Of a DNA stretch of 64,000 bases, positions 42,236-61,912 are shown piece by piece. The notes below the pieces were generated by a model. That model was given only the letters and a program-made list of their open reading frames with translations. It did no database searches and was not told where the DNA came from. Source of the stretch: Margaritispora aquatica (lineage: Eukaryota; Ascomycota; Leotiomycetes; Helotiales; Discinellaceae); assembly GCA_007644065.1 (NCBI GenBank), contig VJWN01000029.1:310001-374000 (forward strand). The letters run 5' to 3'. Every line of letters begins with the position of its first letter. The stretch's first letter is position 1. Both the position numbers and the translations under genes were made by a program.

Positions 42236-44217
42236 TGTTGGCTGACCTGTCGAGTTTTACAACGAGACCGACAAGGTTTGTCTTTATCCAGCTTTTTTAA
42301 ATAAGGCCTAACAAAGTTTGTCTTTGTTGAGTAACAATCTTGGAGGTTTGGTAGGTGACACCGACCCGTGTCATCCTCTGCCGCTTGATAAGCTAGTGAC
42401 GTGTCACTTCCTAAATATAGATGTGTTTTATAACTCCCACCTTTGTTATCGAGAATTTGTACATTACTTACTTGACACTATATATGCTTTAGATAGTTGA
42501 TATCAACAACTCGTGTTGTTATTAAAAGACTTAGTAAGTTAAGCGAACTTGAATAAATGTTGAACGGTTTTCTGTTGATGCCAGCAATGATTCAAGTAGT
42601 ACTATGGTATTGTCTTCTGATGATAGAAGACCTTTCGTATAAAAAGATCTCTAGTAACATGCCAAGCAATAGGATCGTCACACAAGCTATTCGAGCGTAT
42701 CTAGATCAAGAGCAAACCAATGATCGAGTTTTCTCCTTACAAACAGTACCAAGTTGGAACGATATTCAAATCCATGTCTATCGTCGAAATTGTTTCACGG
42801 ACAGGCAAAGCTGTCTCTGAGGCAGACCGCTAAGGAGTTACAAGCCAGGCTCTAGTTGAGACGATGGCCTCACTTCAACACATCGATGGCTGACTAAAGC
42901 TACATAGTGTGGGGATGTCATTGTATGGCTTTATCATTCCAGGAAGATACTTGAGAGAGTGGCTCAGTATCATAGGGCATATTTATTGGTACTGGTGTTA
43001 TATTACCAGCGGTCTTTTGACCTATTTACAAGGCTGTCAATAAAAGTTAGAAGTGATCGTGCAGTCCGGGCTCGCTACCTTGAATAAGGCAGAAACGACC
43101 AGGAAACATTGGAGGTACTAACCTAACTTGTGGAAAGAATTATACGGGAGCAAAGACAGCTACCATAAACAAGATAAAAGTATTGATTCCACCAAATGAG
43201 GTTTCAGTGCTAATATACAAATCGCACCATTATACTTAGTGCTAACTATCACGCCCTAGAAGTAGACTAAACAATCTGTTGGTAGAACTATTAACGACAA
43301 CATTCCATCACTACGTTCTATGTCTAACCAAGAATCGACCTCGATAGACGAGTCTAACGAAAAAGATTCGGATATTGTATATTATAAGAAAGGAGCAGAG
43401 ATTAATACTAAATCGTAATTATTGGAAGCTTGTCGACATATTATCACTTTAATACAAAACGAAGCTATAGATAAAGAGACTATTCTTAGCCTTCGAATAC
43501 CATTAGAAATTTCAGTATCTATTATAAATAAAATAATAAATAAAATAATAAATAAAACAATAAATAAAACAATAAATAAAATAATAAATAAAATAATAAA
43601 TAAAGTAATAATAGTATTAGTTATAATTCTATTTATAGCTTTATTTATAGCTTTATTTATACCTTTATCGATAATGTTATTTATTATAATATTATTTATT
43701 ACGTTATTTATAATTTTAATTATAATCTTATTTCTTATAATACTTATTATAATATTTATAATATATTATAAAAACTATTGTATTCTTAAAAAGACTAAAA
43801 AAATTTAGTACTTCCATTATTAGTACTCGGTTTTTAGTATATACTATAAACTTTCTTTAGAATATAAGTACTGTCTATTTATTGCCAATAATTATCGATC
43901 TCGTAAAAGTCAGGCCTTAGGGCAGCGTTTATAGTAAATTAGTTAGTATGCCTTAAACTTCCATTTCATATCTGCCAAGAAAGATAAATAAAAAGAAGAT
44001 GCAGAGCAATGGACGATTTATTTTTGAGTGATTGTTTGGGTATAGTCCGCAACGCAAAGCTGAACTACCGACAGCATCCCATCGCATGACAACATTAAAG
44101 TCTTTCATTGCCACAAAGTATGGAATAACTAAATATGTTGTTGATAATGCAAAGAAAAAGACTGTATACAAGTGTCTGACTCTCAATATCTCAACCTCGA
44201 GACGGCCATGCTCGCCA
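42236..44217. other. AT-rich gene-free stretch, probable repeat relic
   Basis: The right two thirds are very AT-rich. Around 43321-43430 a fragment reads MSNQESTSIDESNEKDSD and then stops, after which the frame decays into AAT/TAA runs. This resembles a mutated mobile-element relic of the RIP type, but no transposase or reverse-transcriptase motif is legible. Confidence 0.5.
43518..43765. repeat. AT-only low-complexity tract with two complementary halves
   Basis: The left half (about 43518-43607) is built from AATAAAATAATAAAT units. The right half (about 43625-43765) is built from ATTTATAGCTTTATTTAT and TTATTTATTA units. The halves are roughly reverse-complementary, so the strand could fold into a long imperfect hairpin. 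Almost no G or C is present. Confidence 0.75.
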
Positions 44218-49455: not shown

Positions 49456-51141
49456 ATGGAGGAACCGAAAAGTGCTCTCGGCCATGCACAGGGAGTTTCC
49501 GTTGATAATGTCGAGCGCGTCGACAGCATTATACACGGGAAGAATAGCCTTGATGAACTGGCTGATGTGGATGTGACACTTCCCAGTGAGGATGGCCCTT
49601 GGTGGCCTTTCCTTCGCAGCCGATGGCCTATGATCCTGCGTATGGCCCCGATGTACATTGCTGTCATCAACTTTGGCTTTGACCTCTCCGTTACCAACAC
49701 CACTCTCGGTATGCCCTCTTTCCGCAAGTACTTTGGCTATGAGTCTTCTCCTGGCACTTACAAGATCTTGGCCGCCTATCAGTCAGCTTGGGCTGGCGCC
49801 ACCTCCGCTGGTCAGATTCTGATGGACATTCCCGCTGGTTTCCTTGCCGATCGCTATGGACGCAAATTTACTCTCACTCTCTCAGTCATTGTCATCATCA
49901 TCGCCTCTACGATCCAAGTCACTGCCAGGCACATCGCTATGGTCATCGTTGGCAAGGCCGTCTTCGGCATGGGCACCGGCCTTTTCATGTCTTTCATGAC
50001 CTCCTACACAGCTGAGCTTGCATCTCCCCGCCTACGTGGTATTTCCTGCATGGCTGTTAATTTCTGCATCCAGGTAGGTAACTGGGTTGGCTCGGGCGCG
50101 GCCCTTGGTCTTCGCACACGTTACCCTAATGTTAATGACGATCGATCTTTCCGCTACATCTTCGCCTTCCAGTATCTCTTCGCTGGTATCTACTTGATTT
50201 TCTTCTACTGGCTTCCCGAGTCGCCCGTCTTCTATTTGTATCGGGGACAGTACGACAAGGCTGAGAAGGTTATCCGCCAGCTCTACGGACCTGACTACGA
50301 CCACAAACGCCACCTCACCTTCCTCATCAAGACCTCCGCTGTCGAAGAGCGCCTTCGTAGCTCAGGTCACTCCATCGGCTACCGAGAACTTTTCAAGGGG
50401 AGGAACGTCGTCAGAATGTTCATTTCCGCCTGCATCATCTGGCCTATCCTAATGGGTACGGGTTTCTGGCCTGCCTATCAGACATACTACTTCGAGCTCG
50501 CTGGTGCCTCCAACCCCCAGGCAATGAACTACGGCTGCACTTCTGTCGCCATTGGCACCAGTATCATTGCTTACTTTCTCATCGATAGAGTCGGTCGTCG
50601 CAAGCTCTGGATTATCGGTGCTGCTGGCATGACTGTTGCCAACCTCATCGGCGCCTTTATGTGGATCCCTTTCAACAACGGCAACCGCGCCATGGCCGGT
50701 CGTGTCGCTACAGCTATGGTCTTTATCTGGAACGGGTTCTATGACATTGGCCCCGCAAACATGGGCTACGCTATCACCTCGGAAGTTCCTTCAAGCAGAA
50801 TGCGCATCAAGAACAACGCTTTCGTTCACGTCTTCAGTCATGTCACTGGCTTCGTCGTCAGTTTCGTGGTTCCTTACCTTTACAACAACGATCCCACGTC
50901 TGTCGGCCTTGGTCTTCGCGTAGGTTTCATTTGGGCGGCCTTCGGTGTCATCTTTGTGACCTGGGCTTTCTATTACGTTCCTAATGTCGCTGGCATGAAC
51001 GCCTACGAGATTGACCAGCTATTTGAGAGCCGAGCACCTATTCGCAAGTTCCACCATGCCAAGTTCGATGAGCATGACCTTCTTCTTCGGAGCTCCATTC
51101 CTGGATGGAATCCTTCAGACGACGAAGCTACTTCTACTTAA
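49456..51141 (+). CDS. MFS sugar transporter
   Basis: The gene is intronless, 561 aa, about 12 membrane segments. Sugar-porter signatures are present: GFLADRYGRKFTLTL after TM2-3, ELASPRLRGISCMAVNF, PESPVFYLYRGQYDKAEKVI at the end of the first half, and DRVGRRKLWIIGA in the second half. GFYDIGPANMGYAITSEVPS comes before the last helices. It resembles the fungal maltose/alpha-glucoside or general hexose and disaccharide permeases; the substrate cannot be fixed. The cytoplasmic N- and C-termini are charged, as usual. Codons end in C far more often than in neighbouring genes, and there are no introns, so its history may differ from the flanks. It diverges from the GH28-like gene. Confidence 0.92.
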   Translation: MEEPKSALGHAQGVSVDNVERVDSIIHGKNSLDELADVDVTLPSEDGPWWPFLRSRWPMILRMAPMYIAVINFGFDLSVTNTTLGMPSFRKYFGYESSPGTYKILAAYQSAWAGATSAGQILMDIPAGFLADRYGRKFTLTLSVIVIIIASTIQVTARHIAMVIVGKAVFGMGTGLFMSFMTSYTAELASPRLRGISCMAVNFCIQVGNWVGSGAALGLRTRYPNVNDDRSFRYIFAFQYLFAGIYLIFFYWLPESPVFYLYRGQYDKAEKVIRQLYGPDYDHKRHLTFLIKTSAVEERLRSSGHSIGYRELFKGRNVVRMFISACIIWPILMGTGFWPAYQTYYFELAGASNPQAMNYGCTSVAIGTSIIAYFLIDRVGRRKLWIIGAAGMTVANLIGAFMWIPFNNGNRAMAGRVATAMVFIWNGFYDIGPANMGYAITSEVPSSRMRIKNNAFVHVFSHVTGFVVSFVVPYLYNNDPTSVGLGLRVGFIWAAFGVIFVTWAFYYVPNVAGMNAYEIDQLFESRAPIRKFHHAKFDEHDLLLRSSIPGWNPSDDEATST

Positions 51142-53284: not shown

Positions 53285-56200
53285 ATGGATCCCCTAGACA
53301 TCTTCAATCGAAATCGCAGGAGGCTCGAAAACTTGGTTGCAGGTGGCACCAATGAGTTGGAAAGACAAGAAAAGGAGCGAAATGCGCAGGAGGAGAGAGA
53401 AGACCGTGCGAAGAGCTTCAAGTTTGGACAGGTTAGCAAGATCTGCATCTCAAGTAAATCAACGTTGTATGGACTAACACTGTGGCAGGATTCGGCAATC
53501 GGAGTTAGGCAAGAACTGAAGGCTATGTTTAAGGAAAAGAATACTGTAACGGAAACCCTCATGGCTACAATCAGTGCTCGCGTCGTGAAGGATCTTGCTG
53601 CAACGCTTTCTGGATTCGCGAAGAAGTCTGACCTCGATGGACTCGTCAAACCTGCCGATTTGGCTGGCTTGGTTCAGGCATCGGATATAGACAAGCTGGC
53701 TAAATCCTCCGAGCTCGCTGGATTTGCGAAGGCTTCAGATCTCAAGGATTTCGTCAAAACCTCTGATATTTCCAAGTTTGCGAAAACCTCGGATCTAGCC
53801 AATCTTGTCAAAACCTCTGAGATATCAAAGTTGGCAAAGACATCGGATCTAAGCAATCTCCTTAAGCTTGGAGATATATCCGAATTGGCCAAAAGTACAG
53901 AGATCGCTGCTATTGCAAAGTCTCTGGAGAGTGTAGCGACAAAGGGTGATCTTCAATCGCTGGCAAAGGCTTCGGATCTGTCAGTACTCGCCAAAAGCTC
54001 TGACCTCGGACCTCTTGCGAAGAGTAGTCAGTTTGCAGGCTTGCTCAAGAGCTCAGAGTTTGGTGCTCTAGCGAAAAGCAGCCAGCTCAAAGATCTAGCT
54101 AAGCACACTGATATAGGTCCTCTTGCAAAATCCAGTCAGTTTAAAGGCTTGTTACTCAGTTCTGAGTTTCTTGCTCTTGCAAAGGGTAGTCAGTTTGCAG
54201 ATTTGCTCGGAAGCACTGAGTTCCTGGCTCTTGCAAAGGAGAGTCAACTTACAGGCCTAGCAAAGAGTTCTGACTTGGATATTCTTGCAAAGAGCAGTGA
54301 ATTAACAGAGCTGGCAAGAAATGACCAATTCACTGGGTTGGCAAAGACCTCTGATTTGTTCGAGTTGTCCAAAAGCTCTGATCTGGAACTGCTTGTGAAA
54401 TCCAGTCAGATCGAAAGTCTGGCCAAGACGTCTGATCTCTCCAATTTAGCCAAAAGCACCGATCTCGAGTCTCTTGTAAAGAGCAGTGAAATCCAAAAGC
54501 TGGCAAAGACTTCAGATTTCTCACAGTTGGCCAAAACCACGGATCTCTCTGGTGGACTTCGTACGCTAGCAAAGACAACCGATTTGGATGGATTGGCAAA
54601 GAGATCAGACCTATCTACTTTAGCCAAGACCACAGATCTTGCTAATGTCGTGAAGTTAGCACAACTGGAACCATTAGCGAAGACCTCGGATCTCATAGAT
54701 ATGGTGAAGGTAGCACATCTAGAGCCATTGGCAAAATGGACGAGCTTCGGTGATTTGGCGAAGTCTTCAGACTTAACCCCACTCGCGAAAACCACTGATC
54801 TTACAGATATGGTAAAGATAGCAAATATAGAGCCATTGGCGAAGGCTACTGCGTTGGAAAATTTGGCAAAGACTTCAGATCTGGCCACTCTTGCTAAGAC
54901 GACGGACCTAGGTGTGATTGCCAAGACGACAGATCTCAACCTGCTGTCCAAAACTACAGATATAGATCAATTGGCCAAGACTTCGGATCTAACTAGTCTA
55001 GCTAAAACTTCAGATTTGGCCACTCTTGCGAAGACGACGGACCTGGGTATAATCGCCAAGACCTCGGATCTAAGTACTCTGTTCAAAACTACAGACATGG
55101 ATCAATTGGCCAAGACTTCGGATCTGAGTACTCTGGCTAAGACTTCAGATCTGAATACACTTGCGAAGACGACAGACCTGGGTGTAATCGCCAAGACTTC
55201 GGATCTAGGTACTCTGGCAAAGACTTCCGATCTAAGCACACTCGCTAAGACAACAGATTTCGGTCTTGTAGCTAAAATTACAGACTTGAATGTGTTGGCG
55301 AAGACTTCAGATCTCAGTCAGTTATCCAAAACTACAGACTTGAATACATTGGCCAAGACAATGGATCTACGTACACTTGTCAAGTCGACAGATCTGAATA
55401 CATTGGCTAAGACTGCAGACTTGAATGTATTGGCCAAGAAGTCAGATCTGGACACGTTGGCTAAAAGCTCTCAGCTGACTCCACTTGCCTCCCTGGATGA
55501 GATCTTGCGGATCGTTAGGAATAAACTCCTCACTGAATCCAAGTTTATGGAGTTGACTAGCGAATTTCCCAAAACAGAGTATTTCGACCATCAGTGGCGA
55601 TCGTTGGCAAGTGCAGTCCAAATCGACAAACTATCCCGCTTGGTCAATGATAAGGCCACTCAGAATTCTAGTCTCATCGACACGCAGTTCATCAACCTGG
55701 CTCGCCGATTTGATGCGCTAGACTTGAGAATCGGGACTACTCTCACCCAGACACAGTTTGAAGCTTTTTATGCTGTCCCTTTCCTGGCCCTCATGGCTTC
55801 TATCGCGAGAAAATTGGATGTGTGTGTTACTGCTGAACATCTCGACGATGCGAGAACCGAGATTCTGGCTCTGCTTGCCGATTTTCCCACCAGGGCAGAA
55901 TGGCTACAAAGCGCACATGGCATTCTTTATAGGATCAGCAGGCTTCCGAACAGGGCTTGGATTCAAAAGTGCTCTTATGACAACATGGAACTTACCAGCA
56001 TCTGGATGAAGGAAGTTGTCCGAGAGAACAAAGAGGTTTCATACAATATCCGCAATGCATTGCGAGACTACATCCACAAGAAGACTCAGACTATGCAGGA
56101 TAAGTTGAACGCCTTTGTTGACGAAGAGGAGTTTGCCAAATTCAGACTTTTCAGAGGATTGAGGAATGATATCGTTGCTGCAGTTGCAACTATGCTAAAT

Positions 56201-57444
56201 TACCAAACCTCACAAGAAACCTCTGGAAATGACCAGAGTAGTATCCATAGCAGCAGCAGTGATAATGATGCAAACCGCCGAGCCGATATCAGAGCTGGAA
56301 AGCGGAGAGAGGTCGATGATCCTATTGAATCTATGCCACCACCTCCTCCTCCTCCTTTGGATAGAACCAGCACAGCATCTCAGTTCCAAGAACAAGAGCA
56401 ACAGGCGGATGACATCTATAGTGTCAGTCCACCCCCGGAATTACGAGATGATGATAGCATAGTACTTGATGATAGCATTCCGGGTACAGATTATTCCGAT
56501 TTTCCATTGTTTAGGGCAAGTTTGCCCATCTTGCAACGACCAACGTTTCTATCTGAAGCATCTCGTAGTGAGCATGCGCGTCCAAGCACATCTGGATCGG
56601 TCACTGCTGCAGCTGCCCCCAAGAAGAAATCCCGCATCGAAACCGTTACTAGTAGTGATGATGATTCTCTACTGTTTGCGAGCTTCAATGAGGAAGACAA
56701 TTTGGCAATCCAACAAGGTCAAGGTCCTCGTTCAACTGTTCTCGGTATTCCACGTGGTTCGCAGGGGCATCCGTCCAATTCCCGTGGCACTCAATCGGCT
56801 ACAATTGCTGGTCATGGAGTCACACAGTCTACGACAGGTGAAACCTCTGGCTCATTGGCTCCTGTTGCCATATCGAGCGATCAGAGAGACTTGGGAGATA
56901 GCGTAGGTGAAGCCTCTGGATCTTCGGCTGCCGCTGGTGTCGTTCCTGGTCTTTCAAGACCCGGTGGCTTGGAAGTTGTAAGTGATTACCTATTTACAAG
57001 AAATATAATTACTAACAGTGACAGGATTCAAAATGGAAGACCATCCCAATCGGAAAGCAACCCGCAAGAGGCCGTGGAAGAATGCCTGCTCTTGATAATT
57101 GCGAACTTCCTGAGGAAATCAAGAGTGCTATTCATTCCAAAGATAAGGAAGTTCGAGGACATCGAAAGAATAACTCGGAAATGAATGTCACTCGGCCGGC
57201 TTTGTGCTGGATGTCTCAATATGCGGCATCAAAGGAGTGGGAAGCTGCTGATGGTGTTGGTCAGCCCAAGCGCACAGGAACTCAAACGTCTACCATGAAG
57301 AAGGCTCGTAGGGAGTGGTGGGAGGGAAAGTGGACTGATACCGAGTCTGACTGCCCTTCTTGTGCATTTAGAAAGAATAATGGCGAGGCTGGAGTCGTGT
57401 GCTTCTATTTCGAAAACATGGAGACGATCAAGGCATTGCTATGA
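53285..57444 (+). CDS. Giant nonapeptide-repeat protein, 1351 aa
   Basis: The model is join(53285..53431,53489..56977,57025..57444). Both introns keep frame. The first is 57 nt (GTTAGC, GACTAAC, GGCAG) and lies within an open frame, so naive translation would include it. The second is 47 nt (GTAAGT, ACTAACAG, GACAG). The start ATG is in ideal context (AAACATGGAT). Residues 1-49 form a charged helix, and 93-715 hold 69 tandem nine-residue repeats. About 716-965 is helical with many Leu/Arg residues. About 970-1210 is disordered, with a seven-Pro run and acidic Ser patches including DDDSIVLDDSIP. The final 139 residues are a compact Trp/Cys module (RPALCWMSQYAASKEWEAAD, WWEGKWTDTESDCPSCAF). I do not recognise the protein. 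A structural or scaffold role is inference. Confidence 0.8.
53618..55486 (+). repeat. 69 tandem 27-bp units encoding A-K-T-[ST]-D-L-x-x-L
   Basis: The tract is 623 codons long. I count 69 units: 67 of exactly nine residues, one of seven (unit 12) and one of thirteen (unit 35), which sums exactly to 623. Lys at position 2, Asp/Glu/Gln at 5, Leu/Ile/Phe at 6 and Leu at 9 are nearly constant. DNA copies differ strongly at synonymous sites (for example AAGACTTCGGATCTG versus AAAACTTCAGATTTG). The repeat is therefore conserved as protein rather than as a young satellite. Confidence 0.95.
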
Positions 57445-58345
57445 GTTGGCCATGTGGAGGGAAACGAGACGAGAGGTGTAATTTACCGAAGTGTAGTGTA
57501 ACGAGTAGCATAGCTAATTTAACAAACAATACCCAATAAGCGTCAAAAGTGTGAGGATTGTGTGGTTATTGGGTATATAAGGTAGAATTCGCCAAGCAAA
57601 CTCCAGGTGTGCACAATCCCAAACATGGCGAGTATTTAAAGGATCTTATTCCTAGATATGCTTTGTCCCAATTGTCGATGTGCTTGAGATCTAAGACCAT
57701 TCTTATACGAATGTGCGTGAGATAGATAGCAGCTTAAGACTTTGACTGATCTTCGTAGACAGGAATGTCATGAGTGCGAAGGGAGTCTTGGAGCCTGTAG
57801 GACTTAGCATCCATTAATTGTGCCACCTTTTGTTGTATGGGGCCTGTACTGAGCCATGTAAGTGTATTTTGGTATTCCATAGTTTCTTTGACACTTGGCT
57901 GGATTGGGATGATTGATTTATATTAAAGGGACTTCAGCAACATCAACGACTAATTAACCCCAAAATAAAGTCAGAATACTAAAATGATGCCTCAGTTTCA
58001 GTCCTATATCACACTCACCTTCGCTTTGATCTCCACCTTCACCTTTACTTTTCAACTCCATCGTCTAATACCTACATGAAGTAAACTCATCTTTACTCTA
58101 TCTGGAATCAATCTTTCTATAAATTCCTATTTACATTTCTCCCTTCAAGTTCAAACTCTTCCAGGTTCAACTATCTTCAACCCAGCGAACTGACAACCAA
58201 GAAGTAACAAAACTCTCAAAATTCCTCACTACCATCTACATAAATTCAATGCCCTGTTCATGAGCAAGTGAGGTTGGAAGAGGATTGCAATGTTGATTGT
58301 AAGGTCCAAGAAACTCGCTTTTGAGCTATATTGACCTCTCAGGAA
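57445..58345. other. Intergenic spacer with leader sequence
   Basis: A C/T-rich leader occupies about 58000-58300. A possible short first exon (ATG TTG ATT at 58290-58298) followed by a 44-nt GTAAGG...CTCAG intron would join in frame to the next gene. No other feature is seen. Confidence 0.5.
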
Positions 58346-59518
58346 ATGAACTCTGCACCAAAGACACCTCCTCAAGGAAGGTCTCGCATACCCACCACCC
58401 CTGCACCGCCGAAAAGGAGAAAACCCCAGAGACGGTCAGCTTCACCCGTCACTCCTGTACCTAGGAAGCGAAGACGGCACCATGAAAACGTAGCAAGAAA
58501 GGAGCAATCTGTATCTAAAGACAATCTCAACCAACTATCATTATCAATGTTCACCATTCCCCTACCACAAATCATTCCTCGTCGTGGAAACACGTTGGCA
58601 ACTCTGGACCTCGTACATACTCTTGGAGATACAACTTTGTTCTGGTATGGACGGCACTCGCTGCATCTTCCAGCCCTTGAAATTGCAAAAATTGAGAGAC
58701 AAAACAAGACAAAGAAGCTCCAAAGTGAAGAGGAAATTGCCATTCACCTCATCCGGGCCGTTGGAGCTGTCTTTCACCTCGTCAACTTTGAGCTCCCACT
58801 TGATCGGGAGCATATCTTTTACAAGTACTGTGCACCTCTATTCAAGTTCGTCACAACTAAGCCACATGTCAACCTCACCTCAAGGATTGCATCTCACCTG
58901 ATTGAACGTTTTACAACATTTGGAGAAGCGAGGTTCTGGCCTGTCGCTGCCAAAGCCGAGGACACGTCTGGAGATTGGCTAACACAAGATCGCATGATGT
59001 TGCTTTTTGGTGTTCCTTATTCGAATTCGGTGGACCTCGAAGCATTATATCGTGATAAAGGGACTGATGGTGGATGGATTCGACAAGTTACTACTCAATA
59101 CTTGGAGACTATGGAAAATCGATTCATAAAGTCAAAGGGTCCCGCCACTGCAAAGGAGATTTTATTAGGCATCAAAGAGAGGGCGAGACAGGCATTGAAG
59201 CCAAATCCTTTGAACGTTGTTTTAAGGGAGGACTTCTCGAGATCTAGGAAGAGATGCCTTTATATCCACAAAATCAGGCACTTGAAGTGGTGCGATGTCG
59301 AGATTGTGAAAGGAATGTGGACGGGTGAGCTGGAGAAGAGTCTGGTCGTTGGGAGCGAAGAGCGTGATATTGTCAATAAGTGCGCAGGTTCTCCTGACTG
59401 TGCCGATGGATGTGCAATGCCTGGTGGATGTGCAGAAGTTTTTGGACCATTCACATACAGGGAATTTAGGCTCACTGAAGCTGGGAGAAGGGAAAAAATT
59501 ATTATCGAGATTGATTGA
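58346..59518 (+). CDS. Unknown nuclear-type protein, 390 aa
   Basis: I do not recognise this protein. Residues 1-60 are basic and Pro-rich with two clusters, PPKRRKPQRRS and PRKRRRHH, which look like a bipartite nuclear-localisation region. The following 280 residues form an ordered globular domain: LATLDLVHTLGDTTLFWYG, AIHLIRAVGAVFHLVNFELP, DWLTQDRMMLLFGVPYSNS and IHKIRHLKWCDVEIVKGMW. The C-terminus has a cysteine-rich patch, KCAGSPDCADGCAMPGGCAE, that could bind a metal. The start at 58346 is the first in-frame ATG in good context; a spliced start at 58290 would add three residues. It follows the giant repeat protein on the same strand by 0.9 kb. Confidence 0.65.
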   Translation: MNSAPKTPPQGRSRIPTTPAPPKRRKPQRRSASPVTPVPRKRRRHHENVARKEQSVSKDNLNQLSLSMFTIPLPQIIPRRGNTLATLDLVHTLGDTTLFWYGRHSLHLPALEIAKIERQNKTKKLQSEEEIAIHLIRAVGAVFHLVNFELPLDREHIFYKYCAPLFKFVTTKPHVNLTSRIASHLIERFTTFGEARFWPVAAKAEDTSGDWLTQDRMMLLFGVPYSNSVDLEALYRDKGTDGGWIRQVTTQYLETMENRFIKSKGPATAKEILLGIKERARQALKPNPLNVVLREDFSRSRKRCLYIHKIRHLKWCDVEIVKGMWTGELEKSLVVGSEERDIVNKCAGSPDCADGCAMPGGCAEVFGPFTYREFRLTEAGRREKIIIEID

Positions 59519-59668: not shown

Positions 59669-61912
59669 TCAGCTCATTGAGATCAAACCGTGGTAAACGA
59701 ACTCTTTCTTCATCGTCTGCCACTTCTCTGTCCTGGCTTCACGAGCTGCCCCCACAAAGTCAATTGTCGAGAGATCAAGTTCCTCACCAGCTCTAGCACA
59801 TTCAGCAGCATGGTGTTGTGCCAAATAACGCTCGACAGCCAAGGCATTCTCGCCACGAACCTCTGCCCACAACTCAGAACCCTTGCCCCTGATACTGGTA
59901 ATAACTTCATCCCGTAATGGGGAGACTTTTGTGAGAACCTCGAACCCTTCGGTGCAAAGCTTTACCTTGCCATTCTCCCGAGTCCAGATGTACTCCTTTG
60001 CATTGCCAGTGCGAATGCATCTAACACTATGCTTGGACGAGATTTCGACGCAAAAAGCAACAGTCTCAAACTCTGCAGTTCGCAGGTACTCTCTGACAGC
60101 GGGGTTCTTCATCAAACTGACAATGTCGAGTGGTTTTGCCTCACGCTGCGAATATTAGCCTTGCACTCAAACAAAAAACCAGGCACTTACCAATGACTCG
60201 GTCAGCTCGTTATATGCATTTGTCCGGATGTTACTTTGCCTGTCGGGCAGATCAGTGCTGATTCTGAAGATGTGTGTTCCCTTCGAAAGAACCCAAGCAA
60301 AGATAACTCGCTCCACTGCATCCCAGTCGAGGAAGATATGGCCACAAAGCGGTTCATAAGACGTAGTGCGCCGGATAAGTTCGTCTAGCAAACCATCCTT
60401 CCTGATGACCTCTGATCGCTGACACAACTCTGCCATCAAAAGGAAATATCCAAGCATGGGTAAGCTTTGAAGCTTATAGTGATCCAGAACGAATACCAGA
60501 AGAGTTCGTAGCAATTGGAGCTCATACTTGGCATTCGTCGACTTGGTCAAGCCTTCAACTGCCAAAGGCAACCAAGGTAGCTGTTCATCCAAGGTAGCTT
60601 GAATTTCCACCTTATCATCTGAATGAATCGAAGCGAGTATGCTGGTGATGTATGCTCCTGGTGATCCATACTTTGGCTTGCCTGGGAAATTGTAGATACA
60701 GTCGCCAAGCACAACTGGACACATGGTCTCTAGATATAAATCTCCCCATTTGCATTCTCCAGGATCGATATACATATCATCGACCTCTGCCGCCAATTGA
60801 TCGATATCTTCGTTCGACATAGGACCTCCTGAGATCGCAAGACTGAGCAGTCTGGTTTTGTTCTTCCTCAGATCAGGTACGTTCTTGTTCAAGCGGACAC
60901 GGATTCTTTCGATGGTTTCTCTGTTGGTCTGTTCATTCCACTCCAATTCCCGGATGCGTTTGAGGGTCGCTTGAGCAGCACCTGTCTCATCTCGACCTGG
61001 CTCAATGTCGGAATCATCATCAGCAGACTCTGGTAAATCATGTGTAATCGACGTGCGCCTCTTGCCAACTGATTTCTTGCTTGGAGGAGGCGGCGGGGAA
61101 GGAAATTTGGCACCGGTTGCTTTCGTCTCAATCCGCTTTTGTGGGGTGACAATCTGCGCAGGGGAAACTGGAGCGATATCCGAGCTAGCAATAAAGCCTC
61201 CTCCGGGCGAAAAAGGCACTGTCAGCTGGGTCACGCCAGTTGCCTTTGCCTTTGCAAATTTCTTTCCAAGTATCTCAATATTTCGGAGTACCTTTTGGAC
61301 GTCCCAGTCTCCAAGAGCATGATCAATGGGCAGGTGTCTCTTGAATGCCGAAACAATCAGTTGAAGATCGACAGTTGAATCAACCTTGGGCACAAAGGAT
61401 CTTCCTTTGCTAGCTGCATCAATTCGTCCAATAACCTCATCGTGACCAAAAACATTGAGTAAAGCATGGATGGCACGAGCAGCCTTCTTTTCTCTCTCCG
61501 CCAGCAGACGTCTGTTCTCCTCGGAAACTATTGTCGTCTGTTCTGCCGCCTCGTTGATGTCGTCGACGGTGTTGCTACGGAAAGCGTCGAACTCCATCAG
61601 TTTCTCTTTGGCGAACTTATTCTCGTTCATAGCAGCTTTCTCGACTCTTTTGATTTCATCCAATTTCAGACGAGAGCTTTGTACAAAAGCCGAAACATCC
61701 TCTGGGTGTAAAGCTCCCAGTTGTGCGGAAAACTTCCTATACTCCTGACTTGCCAGCTCGACTGTCTTCCTAGCGTCATACAAGGCGCCAGTGACCTTGC
61801 TATGCTCCAGCCATTCCATATTTTTGTGAGGGATGCGATATGCACCGGTTGGGCCAGCTTCTGTATCAGAATCTGGCTCGTAGTCTTTAAGCTTTGGTGG
61901 TGTGGATTCCAT
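59669..61912 (-). CDS. Unknown coiled-coil protein, 732 aa
   Basis: The model is complement(join(59669..60145,60191..61912)). The 45-nt intron has GTAAGT, a GGCTAAT branch and a CGCAG acceptor, phase 0. After an acidic N-terminus, residues about 45-150 have coiled-coil character (LKLDEIKRVEKAAMNENKFA, EENRRLLAEREKKAARA). A Pro-rich, basic linker follows (PPPPPSKKSVGKRRTS). Then comes a second short coiled coil (LKRIRELEWNEQTNRETIER) and a helical C-terminal domain with DPGECKWGDLYLETMCPVVL, YNFPGKPKYGSPGAYITSIL and EPLCGHIFLDWDAVERVIFA. No signal peptide or membrane segment. It is convergent with the 390-aa gene (stops about 150 bp apart). No family is recognised. The mix of coiled coil and basic linker suggests a nuclear or cytoskeletal complex component, but that is a guess. 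Confidence 0.7.

Follow-up and report, generated by a model that had tools for sequence, protein, structure and literature searches.

A 68-nonad array of K-T order in a subtelomeric gene of the fungus Margaritispora aquatica

In the alpha/beta coiled coil, a heptad is extended by two residues to a nonad, and a short beta-layer formed by three chains replaces core position d (Hartmann 2016, PMC4786415). The nonad rules given in that paper comprise a hydrophobic residue at beta1, a small residue (A/V) at beta2, D/N/T/S at beta3, acting as N-cap, K/R at e and D/E/Q at g. Among the proteins it describes, Tcar0761 is one natural protein with a long run, of 14 consecutive nonads, and beta-layers are described from bacterial, archaeal, viral and phage proteins, as well as from a family of membrane proteins occurring in prokaryotes and in mitochondria (PMC4786415). 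In DUF1640/CCDC90 proteins, a beta-layer motif is located where the C-terminal stalk starts (PMC4786415). A period of nine is also found in RTX proteins, for which the nonapeptide consensus is given as G-G-x-G-(N/D)-D-x-(L/I/F)-x (PMC7354457).

The gene and its nonad array

The window, namely, the whole stretch of 64,000 nucleotides that was analysed (contig VJWN01000029.1, positions 310,001 to 374,000), contains on its plus strand a gene at 53285–57444, the three exons of which, modelled by eye from frame and splice signals, encode a protein of 1351 aa. Exon 1 (53285..53431), with ATG at 53285, encodes a charged N-terminal segment, delimited by frame and splice signals and inspected for hydropathy; no signal peptide was seen in it by eye. 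Intron 1 (53432..53488) is 57 bp long and in frame, with a CTAAC branch-like site 7 bases before CAG; its retention is possible because the donor, GTTAGC, is weak, and an ORF reading through it is also present. Exon 2 (53489..56977), taken from the ORF listing and translation, comprises 1163 codons with the entire array and the C-terminal region. It is followed by intron 2 (56978..57024, assigned by eye) and exon 3 (57025..57444), encoding a C-terminal four-cysteine domain (CW...CPxC...CFYF), which is common to a gene on contig C5. No transmembrane stretch was detected in the protein, the highest 19-residue mean being 1.51.

The array occupies positions 53615–55483 of the window, corresponding to 623 residues (protein residues 92–714) in a single open frame. 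It is represented by 68 in-register nonads of the pattern L-A-K-T/S-S/T-D-L-x-x (11 + 23 + 34), together with insertions of 7 and 4 residues. Unit starts were set at the Leu before A-K, whereas in the sequence-only reading of the same DNA the register begins one residue later; the in-frame tract of 623 codons that it had reported is present, but its 69 units are replaced by 68 nonads and two insertions. Automatic segmentation gave 62 array units and two chance units outside the array; in-register reading adds the skipped ones, and the counts given here use all 68. Block 1 (53615..53911), delimited by segmentation and in-register reading, contains 11 nonads and is followed by the insertion IAKSLES (53912..53932), where the surrounding hydrophobics are, by eye, spaced 3-4-3 in a heptad-like manner. 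The remaining parts, delimited by in-register reading, are block 2 (53933..54553) with 23 nonads, the first unit of which, VATKGDLQS, has the published order A-T-K-x-D; the insertion GLRT (54554..54565), giving a unit spacing of 13 with Leu at a+4; and block 3 (54566..55483), with 34 in-register nonads without interruption. Both insertions fit coiled-coil spacing, the first by its 3-4-3 hydrophobics and the second by its Leu at a+4. The minus strand of the array carries an ORF of 181 codons at 54406–54951.

Set against the published nonad rules, the consecutive nine-residue units are hydrophobic at the first Leu position (beta1) and at the second (a) in 68/68 cases each, have A or V directly after the first Leu (beta2) in 60/68 and D/E/Q at the Asp position (g) in 64/68 (D 47, Q 9, E 8). 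These four rules hold together in 59/68 units if beta2 is widened to A/V/S/G/T. Two other rules fail: at beta3, where D/N/T/S is expected, K is found in 63/68 units, and at e, where K/R is expected, T/S is found in 49/68 and K/R in 4/68. Judged from these unit compositions, K and T are swapped relative to the published nonad order. Of the four positions previously described as nearly invariant, that of Asp is really one of D/E/Q. The array is charge-balanced and Ser/Thr-rich (K+R 78, D+E 81), its hydrophobic period is 4.5, half a nonad, and the longest run of units with the strict pattern is 23. The RTX consensus, GGxGxDxUx, is absent from the array according to the unit compositions. Periodicity tests of the flanks gave no heptad support: the N flank was matched by 541/1000 shuffles and its second half by 557/1000, while the C flank was matched by 260/1000 over 240 aa and by 29/1000 over 60 aa, the latter, however, at a period of 2.85.

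When every one of the 68 units is compared with every other, pS comes to 0.77 and pN to 0.39; by position, pN is 0.08 at Lys and about 0.7 at b and c. Within the units, stop codons number 0 in the coding frame, versus 43 and 32 when the alternative frames are read. At the DNA level, the units are on average 0.51 identical to one another; two pairs are at 90% or above, and none are identical. The array is old and under purifying selection as a protein, with saturated synonymous sites, and selection on the protein, earlier proposed from synonymous divergence between units, is supported. Older duplications of blocks are suggested by local DNA periods of 54, 81, 108 and 135 bp. Similarity is 0.433, 0.418 and 0.435 for units at distances of two, three and four, against 0.35 ± 0.02 for shuffled units, and no strict super-period was found among the array units.

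The non-repeat C-terminal region (55484..56215, about 240 aa) contains a few beta-layer-like motifs (FPTRAEW, FVDEEEF) by motif count; in 250 aa there are 3 of them versus 0.48 in shuffles (p 0.012, for a motif chosen after looking). The following tail (56216..56977) is rich in Ser, Ala, Gly, Pro and Asp and, judged by composition and basic motifs, probably disordered, with an NLS-like PKKKSR.

Sequence relatives and chromosomal setting

A Pfam scan of the protein gave no match above the cut-off. The four matches below the cut-off at E<=1 (Ribonucleas_3_3, VIR_N, zf-C2H2_assoc3 and AAA_8) were dismissed; neither a YadA-like C-terminal anchor nor DUF1640 or DUF3782 is among them. Exon 2 matched the PHROGs phrog_30808 (E 1.3e-66) and phrog_19741 (E 2.5e-20), phage protein families without an assigned function, the best stretch being the array start. 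In a database of 5.8 billion proteins, 84 proteins match at E<=0.001 out of 7995 candidates scored, the candidates being restricted to 0.55–1.75 times the query length, so that longer proteins could not turn up. Names were shown for 8/84 relatives; an organism is named in three (P0004, P0008 and P0063), all bacteria, and five names are generic. P0001 has 57% identity across 25% of the queried stretch. The similarity to tracts in bacterial and phage proteins that was suggested earlier is borne out by these profile and sequence matches. None of the papers listed in the literature searches deals with such an array in a fungus.

YadA-type and Peptidase_S74 proteins belong to trimeric families. Among the 84 relatives, precomputed domains place a YadA anchor in two (P0005 and P0034) and Peptidase_S74 in one (P0055), and our own scan of 8/84 relatives confirmed these three above the cut-off. 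The remaining relatives contain proprotein-convertase P, fibrillar-collagen C, fibrinogen C or other domains, or none. Pfam domains placed on the repeats of P0006 (DUF1400 and GP3_package) were taken as chance. Signal-like N-termini were seen by eye in several of the 16 relatives inspected.

The KT motif was found in 80/84 relatives and TK in 29/84, a dominance that is partly selection, as the relatives were fetched with a KT array as query. Among 1275 pairs of neighbouring units in the relatives, a spacing of 12 occurs 246 times, 13 occurs 201 times, 9 occurs 197 times and 10 occurs 119 times; spacing 9 is the most widespread, being present in 64 proteins. In units spaced by 13, a hydrophobic residue is present at a+4 in 56/60 unique segments (22 proteins, several of them closely related). 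With an identical pattern, the longest strict nonad run in the 84 relatives is 10, versus 23 in the fungal array, and 50/84 relatives have at most 3 strict nonads consecutively, including P0005 and P0034 with 3 and P0055 with 2. P0005 and P0034 carry 20–21 KT units each, of which no more than 3 follow one another at spacing 9, beside spacings of 13 among others; the S74 protein P0055 has no KT pair at spacing 9, its spacings being mostly 12. The KT units of the YadA-anchored P0005 and P0034 may represent an unsolved stalk element.

Six phage records matched by tblastn were not accepted as relatives: the matches in Shpa and GF-2 oppose the annotated gene strand, two further records have names, lengths and match positions identical to those of Shpa and GF-2, and the others are Listeria and Actinomyces phages. 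The genes of Shpa and GF-2 that match the array in antisense are annotated as hypothetical or 'collagen-like'. A composite KT string had no tblastn match in phages, although a simple-sequence filter may have hidden some. The plasmid search gave 3 matching records.

None of the 3842 candidates retrieved from the protein database with exon 2 residues 660–950, the non-repeat C-terminal region, passed. As a control, the neighbouring transporter (49456–51138) gave 17 proteins at E<=1e-80, the best 83% identical, and the named ones include Fusarium, Plectosphaerella, Stachybotrys, Clonostachys and Sarocladium; the protein database therefore does contain fungi. Contig C22, to which the window belongs, ends in a (TTAGGG)n telomere (last ~150 bases). 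The gene end lies about 18.5 kb from it, and the right part of the window is subtelomeric. Subtelomeric genes are often fast-evolving, and this position fits the absence of relatives found. Between the gene and the telomere, ORFs are present at 58331–59518 (395 aa) and 60167–61912 (581 aa). On the other side of the gene, AT-rich tandem repeats with periods of 12–51 occupy positions 43524–43771, inside a 2-kb stretch with a GC content of 0.336.

In the genome of the fungus itself (42.36 Mb, 49 contigs), neither a second array nor a second copy of the C-terminal region (next best E 0.43) was found among the best candidates, which were those scored. The second match, on the minus strand of C22, is the array in antisense with 32 stops, and the third, on C36, is a VHS simple repeat; both were rejected. 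A relative of exon 3 was found at G000:C5:599759-600085 on the minus strand (E 7e-8, 26% identity over 111 residues), and both sequences carry CW, CPxC and CFYF. The gene with the array and the C5 gene perhaps form a small unnamed family. Upstream of the C5 domain there is a charged open stretch with VPTKDEI, fitting the beta-layer rules as published in PMC4786415. VPTKDEI in C5 and VATKGDL in the array give no more than a hint that the array may have grown from single beta-layers within the family instead of being acquired.

Structural readings of the array

A search of the PDB with exon 2 gave no match at E<=1. The array profile gave 13 weak matches (E 0.94–9.5), with no known nonad fibre among them, and KT-order searches of the PDB overall gave none or weak ones at E>=0.77 (internalin, laminin and others). 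The positive control, MATKDDIAN, retrieved 5apz at 1.8e-23 and, more weakly, 7o92, 6h9l and 5apx. By profile, the array matches the KT nonads of 12 relatives at 98.8%, these relatives having been found with this array as query; the 12 do not include the three proteins with trimeric domains, which are without a run of four. To 11 stretches of the published type, the match is 83% in the expected register, and 8/150 column-permuted arrays score equally (~p 0.05), which suggests a modest link to the solved alpha/beta form, slightly above permuted controls. Mixing of KT and TK units in register within proteins was considered and rejected by spacing counts: with strict motifs, 1/308 KT/TK pairs no more than 30 residues apart has a distance divisible by nine; with looser motifs, 8/421 mixed neighbours have spacing 9; and 40 loci fetched with MATKDDIAN repeats contain 0 mixed in-register pairs. 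The longest run in these 40 published-type loci is 18, by a slightly looser pattern than that of the 23 units of the array.

Tentatively, and with something less than confidence, the array is read as a trimeric rod built in the manner of the alpha/beta coiled coil, but of a 'KT' subtype whose structure is unsolved, and as a spacer that would set the N-terminal segment apart from the disordered tail and its four-cysteine domain. It is judged the likeliest reading because of the agreement in core spacing and at the D/E/Q position and because KT units occur in YadA-anchored stalks; confidence is lowered because the relatives with trimeric domains have short nonad runs. The unit of published order, the spacing of the insertions, the frequency of K-T order in the relatives, the two profile matches and VPTKDEI in C5 also speak for it, while the two failing rules, the permuted controls, the scarce mixing of the two orders, the models without strands and the PDB searches without a convincing KT match speak against it. 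Three parallel chains would associate. In each nonad, the Leu that follows Asp (position a) would form a core layer, and L-A/V-K (beta1-beta2-beta3) would form a short beta-layer where position d would otherwise be. In the KT subtype, Lys would be shifted from e to beta3, with T/S at e, and the helix cap would, given Lys at beta3, shift to T/S at e or f. At the rise of helix geometry, ~0.13–0.15 nm per residue, 68 units would make a stiff rod of, very roughly, 80–95 nm. The rod would be intracellular, because no transmembrane stretch was found and no signal peptide was seen by eye, and it would separate the N-terminal segment from a trimerised C-terminal part consisting of the disordered tail, the NLS-like motif and the four-cysteine, possibly zinc-binding, domain. 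From PKKKSR and the four-cysteine end, we infer a nuclear scaffold or tether as a possible role.

AlphaFold prediction, recommended together with the sequence-only reading, was run on parts of the array and gave helical models. For about 25 nonads (233 aa), modelled without an alignment (pLDDT 47.8, pTM 0.25), mostly regular seven-residue helices extend over L-x-x-L-A-K-T, with breaks at S/T-D. For eight nonads and 13 other array stretches (pLDDT 49.4, pTM 0.18), the helices are irregular, with breaks at S-D, K-T or A-K. No strands are present, at L-A-K or elsewhere, in either of these single-chain models, both of low confidence. The first model is opposite to the alpha/beta reading, but both appear too uncertain to weigh: their pLDDT is 48–49, and a trimer could not appear in a model of one chain.

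The regular helices of the first model are those expected if KT nonads are a fold of their own, with seven-residue helices (L-x-x-L-A-K-T) ended at S/T-D in a monomeric superhelical solenoid, a reading that we regard as unlikely, though as the most probable rival of the trimeric rod. It agrees with the scarce mixing of K-T and T-K orders and with a KT order lacking a solved relative, and a step of several units could underlie the raised likeness at distances of two to four; however, that signal can also arise from block duplication, as seen in the 54- to 135-bp periods, and the models are of too low confidence to count for much. E and Q are poor N-caps, and one or the other replaces D in 17/68 units. 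The same low confidence, together with charge-balanced, Ser/Thr-rich units, would be expected of a spacer that is largely flexible, or only weakly helical, and lacks a definite fibre structure, under selection on composition and solubility only, but hydrophobic residues in phase at two positions in 68/68 units and a pN of 0.08 at Lys are position-specific, which makes such a spacer distinctly improbable. One unbroken alpha-helix, or a coiled coil of the ordinary kind, in which Leu stripes would lie on opposing faces, as earlier proposed on the grounds that 18 residues equal five turns, would accord with the hydrophobic period of 4.5. Against this proposal stand Pro at the ninth position (c) in 7/68 units, recurrent at c in many units of P0001 as well, 18 occurrences of Gly at b or c and the argument of PMC4786415 that a nonad asks more than helices can absorb; its probability is very low. 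Least probable of all is that the gene is decaying or is an untranslated relic. The subtelomeric position, a C-terminal region without a relative found and a gene model built from sequence could be cited for this, but it is countered by the open frame of exon 2 over 1163 codons, by introns of fungal type, by a pN between units that is lower than pS and by exon 3 cysteines kept in the C5 relative.

If the trimeric rod is true, the 68-unit array would extend nonad fibres to a fungal, apparently intracellular setting. A broader proposal, less probable than the rod itself, is that the fungus built, or took from bacteria or phages, the longest alpha/beta-type nonad fibre in these searches, an intracellular rod with a nuclear-type tail, in which K-T order would be a second solution to nonad geometry. 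Because many of the relatives have KT order and the searches gave no solved structure with it, a structure of a short fragment would inform many uncharacterised proteins.

Comparison with known nine-residue systems

The array appears novel in the unusual length and K-T order of a nonad array in a fungus; the repeat itself is not unique. The earlier idea of a new repeat fold is weakened by the alpha/beta coiled coil, a fibre of known structure with a nine-residue period and a comparable layout; the swapped K and T, the lack of a convincing PDB match and the only modest likeness to the solved form leave it some probability. RTX repeats share the period of nine with the array, but their Gly-rich part is missing from it. 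DUF1640/CCDC90 proteins have one beta-layer motif and no array. They are mitochondrial membrane proteins (MCUR1, yeast Put6/Put7), of which fungal members exist, as described in PMC7519068. The KT relatives P0001–P0084 have a residue order and period in common with the fungal array, but differ in flanking domains. The alpha/beta coiled coil, as described for Tcar0761 (PMC4786415), has T-K order, is bacterial, contains 14 nonads and was shown to be a trimer, whereas the fungal array has K-T order and 68 nonads, with a longest uninterrupted block of 34, and is a putative trimer.
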